The notes below the pieces were generated by a model. The model was not told the DNA's origin and did not search any database. It was given only the letters and a program-made list of their open reading frames with translations. DNA of 64,000 bases from NCBI RefSeq assembly GCF_026191375.1, contig NZ_JAODTL010000033.1, forward strand, positions 62,001 through 126,000, read 5' to 3'. Source of the DNA: Marinomonas pontica. Its GTDB lineage: Bacteria; Pseudomonadota; Gammaproteobacteria; Pseudomonadales; Marinomonadaceae. The position numbers and the translations under genes were made by a program. Positions 60,725 to 64,000 of this stretch are shown piece by piece (within the stretch, counting starts at the first letter, position 1; every line of letters begins with the position of its first letter).

Positions 60725-61234
60725 TCACACGGTTATTGGACCGATTCGAACGAGATGCTCGGTATCGTGTTGCCCTTTAAAATGATCCTGCTTATCAAAC
60801 AGGATAGATTCTTCTAACGAGGTACTAAGTTGATCGGCAAGGCGGCGGAACAATGCCCAAGAGCCATCATTTGTTGCGGTAATACTGGTTTCGATGAAAC
60901 GCACGCCAGAACAGCTAGATCGTTCAAGCAGTGATGAAACCATTTTCTTTGCCAGTCCCTGACCACGTGCTTTTTCACTTACGGCCACCTGCCAAACAAA
61001 TAACGTGTCTGGTCGGTTAGGGATCACATAGCCAGAAACAAAACCCACCAACTCACCATCTACTAAACGCGCTGCTATCGAAGTGTCACTAAAATGGCTT
61101 GCTTGCAGTAAGTTGCAATAAACGGAATTGGTGTCCAGTGGAGGGCACGATGCCACTAACTGGTGAATCGCCATTCCATCTGCTGCACTCGGTGCTGAAA
61201 ACACTATTTTTTTTGAATTCATACCTTTATCCAT
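60725..61234 (-). CDS. ectA: Diaminobutyrate acetyltransferase EctA
   Basis: GNAT-fold enzyme that acetylates diaminobutyrate using acetyl-CoA, the second step of ectoine synthesis. The 169-residue protein has VSGYVIPNRPDTLFVWQVAV (cut) and the acetyl-CoA loop VSEKARGQGLAKKMVSSLL. The specific SVYCNLLQASHF segment near residue 38 and FIETSITATNDGSWALF are conserved in EctA. Translation could also begin at Met5. First gene of the ectABC unit; its promoter region is 61235-61400. Confidence 0.96.
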   Translation of the reverse strand: MDKGMNSKKIVFSAPSAADGMAIHQLVASCPPLDTNSVYCNLLQASHFSDTSIAARLVDGELVGFVSGYVIPNRPDTLFVWQVAVSEKARGQGLAKKMVSSLLERSSCSGVRFIETSITATNDGSWALFRRLADQLSTSLEESILFDKQDHFKGQHDTEHLVRIGPITV

Positions 61235-61334
61235 TAGAAATCAAAGTATTTAACGTCTCTCAAAACTGAGTCGTTCTCTCATGTTTGCCATCTTAGTCGC
61301 AAGAAAAAGAAAGCAATTGATTTGATGTCTAAAC

Positions 61335-61340
61335 ATTATA
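61335..61340 (-). promoter_or_regulatory. Candidate -10 element of the ectABC promoter
   Basis: On the minus strand TATAAT lies about 100 bases upstream of the ectA start, preceded by AT-rich GGGATTTGTTTTTAAG. No good -35 (17 bases up is CTGGCC), which would fit an activated or sigma-S-type osmotic promoter, but this is inference from one hexamer. Confidence 0.4.
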
Positions 61341-61515
61341 CTTAAAAACAAATCCCTGGCCAGCATTTATTTAGAGATCTAATCATTACATAACTAACAT
61401 TTCTCATATTTATACCGCACCAAATTCAAAAAAATGCACTTAATAGAAGCAAATAGAATAAAAAAGTCTTTTTTTGTTGCATAAACGCACTGAAATTCGG
61501 AAAATCCTGCCCCTA

Positions 61516-61594
61516 TTCGGAGCTTTGCTTACCAGTTTCTTAACAAACTGGTAAAAGTGGGAAGCAATGGTTTGGCTATGAAACCAGCTCCGAA
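61516..61594 (+). ncRNA. Structured leader element, three-stem fold upstream of the Na+-dependent transporter
   Basis: A 79-base segment with nested perfect pairings. P1 is TTCGGAGCT (61516-61524) with AGCTCCGAA (61586-61594), nine pairs. Inside, P2 is TTGCT (61525-61529) with AGCAA (61563-61567), continued by TACCAGTTT (61530-61538) with AAACTGGTA (61545-61553), and a nine-base bulge AAAGTGGGA on its 3' side. P3 is GGTTT (61569-61573) with AAACC (61581-61585). The three stems meet with almost no unpaired bases. It ends 39 bases before the transporter ATG. This resembles a riboswitch-like or other cis-regulatory RNA. I recognise no known class, and there is no T-run, so it is not a simple terminator. 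Orientation is inferred from its closeness to the plus-strand gene. Confidence 0.6.
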
Positions 61595-61633
61595 CGCTGT
61601 TTATATATTGCTATCAATCATTTAGAGATAACT

Positions 61634-62992
61634 ATGACAAATAAAACATCAATCCAAGGCTCATGGGCGAGCCGATGGATTTTCATTTTAGCGGCAACAG
61701 GTTCCGCTGTTGGTTTAGGTAATATCTGGAAATTTCCTTACATCACAGGTGAAAACGGTGGTGGGGCTTTTGTATTAGTGTATTTGGCTTGCATATTATT
61801 GGTGGGTATCCCAATCATGATGGCCGAAGTATTCATTGGCCGTCGCGCTCGTAAAAACCCCATCAACGCCTTAAGCGATGTCGCAGAAGAATCAGAAGGT
61901 AGCCGCTCTTGGGGCATCATTGGCTTCATGGGAATGCTGTCTGGCGTTTTGATTTTCTCATTCTATTCTGTTGTGGGTGGCTGGGTATTACATTACATCA
62001 AGGCCATGGTAACGGGCGAAATGCTAGGCGTAACATCTGATGCGGCCGGCGCTACATTTGGTGCGTTATTGGCGGATCCGGCCACGTTGCTGGGTTGGCA
62101 CACACTCTTCAGCATCATGACAGTTGCCGTCGTTGCCGCTGGTATAAATAAAGGCATTGAAACAGCCACTCGCATCATGATGCCTGCGTTGTTTGTTCTT
62201 TTGATCATCTTACTTGGCTATGCCATGACAACCGATGGTTTTGCTCAGGGTTGGAACTTCATGTTCGAGTTTGATTTCAGCAAACTTACGTGGAACGCAG
62301 CGCTAATTGCATTAGGTCACTCGTTCTTTACCCTATCATTGGGTATGGGAACCATCATGGCTTATGGCTCATACATGACTCAAAAAGCGTCTATCGGTAA
62401 AACGGTATTGGCAATTGGTGCATTGGATACGCTGGTAGCATTGGTTGCAGGTTTGGCTATCTTCCCTATTATCTTCTCTAACGGAATGGATCCTGCGGCT
62501 GGTCCTGGCTTGATGTTTATCTCTTTGCCAGTTGCCTTTGGACAAATGCCATTCGGACAACTATTTGGCATCTTGTTCTTTGTTCTAGTCGGTGTTGCGG
62601 CATGGACCTCTGCGATTTCTTTGCTAGAGCCAACAGTGGCCTTCTTGGTAGAGCGTTTCAAAATGAAACGAATCACCGCTTCTATTGGTTTAGGAATTGT
62701 TGTTTGGGGACTGGGAATTGCGTGCCTAGGCTCATTCAGCTTCATGTCTGATGTCACGTTATTCGGCAAGAATACATTCGACTTCTTAGACTACATCACA
62801 GCCAATATTATGTTGCCATTGGGCGGCATCCTTATTGCTTTGTTTGCCGGCTGGGTAGTGAAAGACAAATTCGCTCAAGAAGAGCTTCAGCTTCCAAGCA
62901 CAGTGTACACGCTGTGGAATTTTTCCATGAAGTTCACTGCACCAATCGCTGTGGCGGTAGTACTGTATTTCTTGATCAATCCAATGTCTTAA
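61634..62992 (+). CDS. Sodium-dependent transporter, NSS (SNF) family
   Basis: A 452-residue inner-membrane symporter of the bacterial neurotransmitter:sodium symporter family with 11 or 12 membrane segments. The TM1 signature WASRWIFILAATGSAVGLGNIWKFPY (cut) carries the sodium and substrate-site residues (GSAVGLGNIW). TM2 follows with GGGAFVLVYLACILLVGIPIMMAE (cut). TM6 and TM8 regions (FFTLSLGMGTIMAYGSYM; VGVAAWTSAISLLEPTVAF) match. Substrates in this family include amino acids and betaines; none can be assigned. It sits beside the ectoine genes and behind a folded leader, so a link to salt or osmolyte response is plausible. An intrinsic terminator follows. Confidence 0.9.
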   Translation: MTNKTSIQGSWASRWIFILAATGSAVGLGNIWKFPYITGENGGGAFVLVYLACILLVGIPIMMAEVFIGRRARKNPINALSDVAEESEGSRSWGIIGFMGMLSGVLIFSFYSVVGGWVLHYIKAMVTGEMLGVTSDAAGATFGALLADPATLLGWHTLFSIMTVAVVAAGINKGIETATRIMMPALFVLLIILLGYAMTTDGFAQGWNFMFEFDFSKLTWNAALIALGHSFFTLSLGMGTIMAYGSYMTQKASIGKTVLAIGALDTLVALVAGLAIFPIIFSNGMDPAAGPGLMFISLPVAFGQMPFGQLFGILFFVLVGVAAWTSAISLLEPTVAFLVERFKMKRITASIGLGIVVWGLGIACLGSFSFMSDVTLFGKNTFDFLDYITANIMLPLGGILIALFAGWVVKDKFAQEELQLPSTVYTLWNFSMKFTAPIAVAVVLYFLINPMS

Positions 62993-63412: not shown

Positions 63413-64000
63413 TTACTGTTGTACCGCAATCACTTGGTTCATAAAATCCATTACGCCATCGAAAGGGTCTGAATAGACTTTAACGCCATTGATCGTTGTC
63501 GCACCGGCTTCATGAGCTGCCAACCAAACACTGGCACCAACCACCCCCACAGGCCGCTCCCATTGCTGCATACTATTGAGTAAATCAGTGGTTTTGCTCG
63601 CCACATCCTGTTCACAAAATGCCAGCACCGACGACGCTTTGGTACCAGCGACCAGCTCTGACCAATCATCACTGTGCTGAACATTTGCGACCACTCGACA
63701 AGATAAGCCTTTGTCCATCAAAAGCGCGGCTGCCATATAACACCAAAGACTCCGCTGCCCCATTAACCCTGTAATAAGTACGTTTGAACGCGACTTTTGT
63801 TGAGCTTTAACTTGGTTAACCCTAGCGACCAATCCCCCCAACATAATCGACTCACAAAACGCGAGAGCCGCACTCTTACCCAATTGCTCAAAGCTTGGAA
63901 GCAACCAATCCTTCACCGCGATTTGTGCGGGATATTGAGAAAAAATTTGCTGATACATTTGCTCAATTTTGTCAGCTTGAAAGGCTTTCGCTGCGTTTAC
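63413..64000 (-). CDS. C-terminal part of a regulator with a cobalamin-binding-like domain, 5' end outside window
   Basis: The frame is open to the right edge, so the 195 visible residues are the C-terminal portion of a longer protein. An alpha-helical part (LLPSFEQLGKSAALAFCESIMLGG, cut) is followed by a Rossmann-like part (SNVLITGLMGQRSLWCYMAAALLMDKGL, cut). This layout matches the B12-binding-type region of MerR-family light or stress regulators (CarH/LitR group). The usual cobalamin ligand His (in DxHxxG) is replaced by MGQRSLW, so cobalamin binding by that route is unlikely. The N-terminal HTH cannot be seen, so MerR membership is inference. Confidence 0.45.
   Translation of the reverse strand, partial: VNAAKAFQADKIEQMYQQIFSQYPAQIAVKDWLLPSFEQLGKSAALAFCESIMLGGLVARVNQVKAQQKSRSNVLITGLMGQRSLWCYMAAALLMDKGLSCRVVANVQHSDDWSELVAGTKASSVLAFCEQDVASKTTDLLNSMQQWERPVGVVGASVWLAAHEAGATTINGVKVYSDPFDGVMDFMNQVIAVQQ

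Follow-up and report, generated by a model that had tools for sequence, protein, structure and literature searches.

The compact fold that precedes a sodium-dependent transporter gene of Marinomonas pontica raises the question of whether it is a cis-acting RNA and, if so, by what means it might act on the gene behind it. In the window, i.e. the whole stretch of 64,000 nucleotides analysed, the two neighbours proposed in the initial annotation were both identified by profile matches: ectA (60725-61234, minus strand; TIGR02406) and, divergent from it, the open reading frame (ORF) of a sodium-dependent symporter of the SNF/NSS family (61634-62992, plus strand; PF00209, 1.4e-50; NF037979, 1.3e-32). 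The best relative of the symporter among solved structures, by sequence, was 4us3 (4.3e-108), which corresponds to MhsT, a hydrophobic amino-acid transporter. Further along, the protein encoded at 63413-63958 (minus strand) had no Pfam or NCBIfam matches and occurred in 33 of 123 loci, a count that includes duplicates.

A protein search across 48 genomes of the genus yielded 43 symporter orthologues with at least 70% identity, and the leaders of all 43 were compared. Eight of these leaders were also present as duplicates under species names (L009-L016: Marinomonas alcarazii, shanghaiensis, profundimaris, rhizomae, algarum, atlantica and phaeophyticola, and Maribrevibacterium harenarium). A divergent upstream ectA accompanied 38 of the 43 leaders but none of 72 outside loci (L017-L088, covered over up to 2.5 kb), and the arrangement suggests that ectoine synthesis and the symporter may be connected. 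Four leaders (L119, L129, L130, L131) had no ectA within about 3.0 kb upstream, and L120 lies at a contig end. As these four still carried the GUGGG motif described below, the leader is not dependent on its ectA neighbour; the association with ectA suggested initially was thus recovered as a gene arrangement, but not as a dependence.

The fold occupies positions 61516-61594 of the plus strand and possesses the three pairings first described for it. The closing stem P1 joins 61516-61524 to 61586-61594 (9 bp). Inside it, P2 comprises a lower stem (61525-61529 with 61563-61567; 5 bp) and an upper stem (61530-61538 with 61545-61553; 9 bp), with the bulge AAAGTGGGA (61554-61562), which holds GUGGG, on the 3' side, and P3 pairs 61569-61573 with 61581-61585. 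The minimum free energy (MFE) structure of the bare 79-mer kept 8 of the 9 P1 base pairs, at -29.1 kcal/mol compared to a shuffled mean of -17.09 (sd 2.81; z = -4.27), and none of 200 shuffles was as stable. The gap of 39 bases between 61594 and the ATG at 61634 was confirmed, as was the absence of a T-run, and the fold is not a plain terminator. No terminator was found between the fold and the ATG, the sole terminator-like site in 60900-61750 lying inside the ORF (61658-61673). The hexamer CGCTGT directly 3' of P1 (61595-61600) was the commonest 6-mer at leader positions 25-120 (23 of 43 leaders). A Shine-Dalgarno-like AGAGA (61624-61628) sits outside the fold, and in folds with 30 ORF bases added the ribosome region was unpaired at a mean of 0.585, exceeding 0.5 in 36 of the 43 leaders, so that no hidden ribosome site was found. 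The lack of a terminator together with this mostly open ribosome region argues against the usual riboswitch platforms.

Within its own genome the leader DNA matched in full once; the second-best match covered 34 bases (85% identity) and fell in a terminator-like GCCCC...GGGGC stretch. This rules out the dispersed repeat raised initially as a counter-explanation. The symporter leader is not in Rfam 15: searches at gathering scores gave no match in the window and, as the annotation had proposed checking, no known class was matched either in the 451 bases around the fold, where a search up to E = 10 returned four unrelated minus-strand hits, all far below cut-off, or in eight homologous loci. A title-level literature search returned no description of a Marinomonas symporter leader, although absence from print is not claimed.

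Stems at the 5' end with a shuffle p of at most 0.05 were present in 25 of the 43 leaders, the other 18 showing none that was significant; among the 25, L116 has a best partner other than the P1 strand. Five remote leaders (L119, L120, L122, L125, L129) kept a 5'-end stem with different letters. The null used for covariation let each column evolve on its own along the symporter gene tree. In a P1-only test on 31 leaders, two pairs covaried (E = 0.018 and 0.052); of the 12 leaders excluded, 11 yielded no 3' anchor and L129 was removed by hand, while the gap of L125 was placed by hand and the anchor of L112 is one base off. In 19 leaders, the whole-helix p of P1 was 0.0005, the floor of 2000 simulations, while its bare fraction of paired cells did not exceed the tree null (p = 0.31); pair 8/85 reached an E of about 0.68 in the 19 alignable leaders. 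The eight P1 pairs included 12 G-U and no A-C cells, indicating that the plus-strand RNA is what is kept, and RNAalifold predicted P1 only, and neither inner fold, from 19 leaders. This comparison among leaders shows P1 to be a real RNA helix.

The P1 5' strand (61520-61527) has a second complement in codons 8-10 of the ORF (61655-61662, CAAGGCUC), a rival pairing found in several species. When 30 ORF bases were included, P1 was lost from the MFE structure in 6 of the 8 leaders folded, with its 5' strand pairing to codons 8-10. In the window leader, the one folded in longer context, the seven inner P1 pairs regained probabilities of 0.88-1.00 once at least 47 ORF bases were included, and the pairing with the codons was rejected on this ground.

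Upstream of the fold, a -35-like hexamer TTGCAT (61477-61482) and a -10-like hexamer GAAAAT (61500-61505), the latter followed by the GC-rich CCTGCCCC, lie on the plus strand. A comparable pair preceded the fold in all 43 leaders, with a spacer of 17 bases in 42 and 18 in L131; the pattern used (17 bases, with 16-18 allowed for L131) was a looser one, tuned by eye after stricter patterns had missed most leaders, and the 43 of 43 is descriptive rather than blind. In the window the pair fell below the threshold of a generic promoter scan. The shared pair at 61477-61505 places the predicted RNA start at 61512-61515, 1-4 bases before P1, and a start downstream of 61594, which the initial annotation had named as a counter-indication, is not supported by this prediction. 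Across leaders folded with 30 ORF bases added, the first paired base was within 6 bases of the predicted start in only 22 of 43. The GC-rich stretch directly after the -10 (window 61506-61513) recurs across leaders (e.g. CCCGCCCC or CGCCCGCC) and resembles promoters under stringent control. A pairing of GUGGG with this stretch was discarded, as the stretch is kept in leaders devoid of GUGGG (L107-L109, L111-L113) and probably lies before the start. A small upstream ORF was likewise discarded, since the positions and frames of AUG codons vary among leaders (by eye).

Within P1, one P2 pair (columns 25/39, upper stem) covaried strongly, with an E below 0.002 (0 of 500 simulations, 19 alignable leaders, tree null), while the best single P3 pair (61/79) reached only about 0.5 in the same leaders. 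Helix p values were 0.0005 for P2 upper, 0.003 for P3 and 0.010 for P2 lower, for which four alignment pairs were scored. Pair 30/46, outside the model, had an E of 0.25 in 19 leaders and is unexplained. The covariation anticipated for homologous leaders was thus obtained for P1 and one P2 pair, and more weakly for the rest.

A rival helix, F2, shares strands with both P2 and P3 and excludes both: the counterpart of 61545-61553 in other leaders can pair with the region of about 61566-61575. Among 2775 possible 6-bp helices, 81 had at least 70% paired cells, and the top covariation, calculated without a tree, belonged to three families, P2, F2 and P1. The F2 core had a helix p of 0.001, as a helix chosen post hoc, and every single F2 pair fell short of significance against the tree null (lowest E = 23). 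G-U and A-C cells numbered 13 and 11 in P2 upper (no asymmetry), 9 and 5 in P2 lower (little) and 39 and 3 in F2 (much). Pair counts favoured fold A (P2 with P3) and fold B (F2) equally. Energies were calculated by imposing the aligned pairs on each leader, a procedure that overstates the gaps: fold A was better by 11.8 kcal/mol in the window and fold B by 21.8 to 30.1 kcal/mol in four leaders (L101, L105, L106, L110). The gap exceeded 4 kcal/mol in 13 of 19 leaders, was within 1 kcal/mol in L093, L096 and L097, and came to about 1.0 kcal/mol in L099. Because each inner fold is backed in some species and most species do not keep both, structural turnover inside a kept P1 is favoured over a switch common to all species.

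The GUGGG motif was found at positions 25-120 in 25 of the 43 leaders, compared to a shuffled mean of 1.6 and maximum of 8 (shared ancestry not removed). None of the GUGGG variants searched for was present in nine of the 43 (L098, L102, L107, L108, L109, L111, L112, L113, L124). In folds of the leader alone, the motif is a bulge in the window and wholly or largely a hairpin loop in L106, L110, L119, L120 and L121; with 30 ORF bases added, it was unpaired at a mean of only 0.55 over the 25 leaders and 0.23 in the window, which counts against a displayed loop. The motif reads GUGGGU in L129 and L131. The window bulge also contains GGA, a triplet present in 31 of 43 leaders and in 32.2 in shuffles, i.e. 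not enriched.

A covariance model (R1) built from 19 leaders found exactly one match in each of 20 of the 48 genus genomes, at the symporter gene; these were the 19 training genomes and one new one (G046, leader L111). Among held-out leaders, it placed L111, L114, L115 and L116 (E = 6.7e-8 to 1.8e-4) and L125 (E = 0.024) correctly, and missed 19 of 24 at an E of 0.05 (L108 at 1.5, the remainder without a hit). With 5 of 24 held-out leaders found, the model fits one sub-group well and remote leaders poorly. Under stricter filters, R1 was found in five of 244 genomes of the order, all in the genus, which has ten members among the 244, and had no hit among the 234 genomes from other genera. Applied to the outside loci L017-L050, R1 gave a chance-level hit (E = 1.1) within the gene of L048, and by eye nothing similar was seen ahead of the 11 closest orthologues from outside the genus (L017-L027). 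As far as searched, the leader is restricted to the genus.

Seven leaders, those of the M. atlantica group, are longer and carry an additional six-helix domain, placed after the first fold and before the ribosome site (L120:1456-1565, minus strand, and the same place in L121, L122, L123, L126, L127 and L128). In this second domain, 93.4% of cells were paired, 12 of 28 pairs had changed on both sides (six distinct rows), and GCAG and TTAACA stretches were conserved. A model built from the seven (R2) matched the same seven of 48 genomes, once each, and in the order 2 of 244 genomes, both in the genus. Rfam gave no match to the longer leader of L127 up to an E of 5. The second domain may be more riboswitch-like than the first fold.

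Overall, helix covariation beyond phylogeny and a fixed position upstream of one gene mark this element as a structured leader, and a cis-acting leader RNA is well supported by the combination of covariation, the G-U asymmetry of P1 for the plus strand, the fixed position and the single locus. This part of the initial reading held, while its extension to a sensor of sodium, an osmolyte or the transported solute stays conjectural: no Rfam class and no expression platform were found, and the inner fold varies by species. The explanation put forward here, tentatively and on comparative grounds, is that the fold is the structured 5' leader RNA of one symporter mRNA, combining a stem that would shield the 5' end with a loop that would be read by a trans-acting factor. 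With a predicted start 1-4 bases before it, P1 could keep end-dependent decay from attacking the mRNA at its 5' end. The closed domain would present the GUGGG(AAG) loop, which is a bulge in the window and a hairpin loop in certain other species, to a protein or small RNA that might then set the stability or the translation of the symporter mRNA. Weighing against this reading are the 19 held-out leaders missed by R1, the 18 leaders lacking a significant 5'-end stem, the nine without any GUGGG variant searched for, and a paired fraction of P1 that stays within the tree null; the partly paired GUGGG and the loss of P1 in folds with 30 ORF bases added lower confidence in it slightly.

The simpler possibility, that P1 protects the mRNA by itself as a 5'-terminal stabilising stem of the ompA type and that its interior is free filler, accounts for the nearness of P1 to the predicted start, for pairing kept while letters drift and for an interior that varies among species, but it leaves the strong covariation of P2 columns 25/39 and the recurrence of GUGGG far above shuffles without a role, and is judged rather unlikely. 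A riboswitch or ion sensor, in which sodium, an osmolyte or the transported solute would convert the interior of a closed P1 from P2 with P3 to F2 or back, thereby changing translation, is also unlikely. It would explain why the mutually exclusive P2 and F2 stand beside P1 as the top covarying families (no tree), why the post hoc F2 core helix has so low a p value and why three leaders have folds within 1 kcal/mol, and the same genome does carry nqrA-Marinomonas, likewise a structured leader that is specific to the genus and precedes a sodium gene. Against it stand the 13 of 19 leaders whose folds lie more than 4 kcal/mol apart (a gap that forced pairs exaggerate), the lack of any single significant F2 pair, the absence of both inner folds from the RNAalifold prediction, the lack of a terminator or other expression platform beside a mostly open ribosome site, and the absence of an Rfam match. 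Its most elaborate form is doubtful: a bistable switch of Marinomonas in which, under a closed P1, 61545-61553 would choose P2 (with P3) or F2, turning the GUGGGAAG loop from bulge to hairpin loop in response to sodium, an osmolyte or a solute, and to which one sub-group would have added the second multi-helix domain behind.

CsrA/RsmA binds GGA in loops. That the leader is a target of this protein agrees with the csrA gene of this genome and with the GGA in the window bulge, but is very unlikely given that GGA is no more frequent in the leaders than in shuffles, that L129 and L131 have GUGGGU, and that the ribosome site AGAGA is without GGA. Folding energy alone being weak evidence for function, a chance fold or a dispersed palindromic repeat was also weighed; it is highly improbable in view of the single copy, the covariation and the one R1 match in each of 20 genus genomes. 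The shielded leader with a recognised loop stays the preferred, if tentative, reading.

Among known systems, the ompA leader is a 5'-terminal stabilising stem. The symporter leader resembles stems of this type in having a stem a few bases from the predicted 5' end that is kept by pairing over sequence, but differs in forming a bigger closed domain in which a loop motif recurs, and its stabilising role is a proposed one. It also offers an example of a leader whose outer stem and loop motif recur while the inner fold differs by species. The opuB motif, described in PMC11109978 as a candidate riboswitch of transporter genes, is likewise a 5' leader upstream of a transporter gene, whereas no ligand or expression platform was found for the symporter leader, which belongs to one genus and one gene. 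The nqrA-Marinomonas RNA, presented in the same source as a rare motif of the genus that might be a riboswitch (PMC11109978), was found before nqrA in the same genome (RF03035; 122.2 bits; L149:1346-1477), and RF03035 had no match in the window or in the 451 bases around the symporter-leader fold. Both are structured leaders before sodium-related genes in the same genus and genome, but they correspond to different models and different genes: the symporter leader belongs to the same broad class and is a separate RNA. With it, the genus gains a candidate regulatory leader beside an existing sodium-linked one of unproven function, and the two could be tested jointly for a common sodium or osmotic signal.
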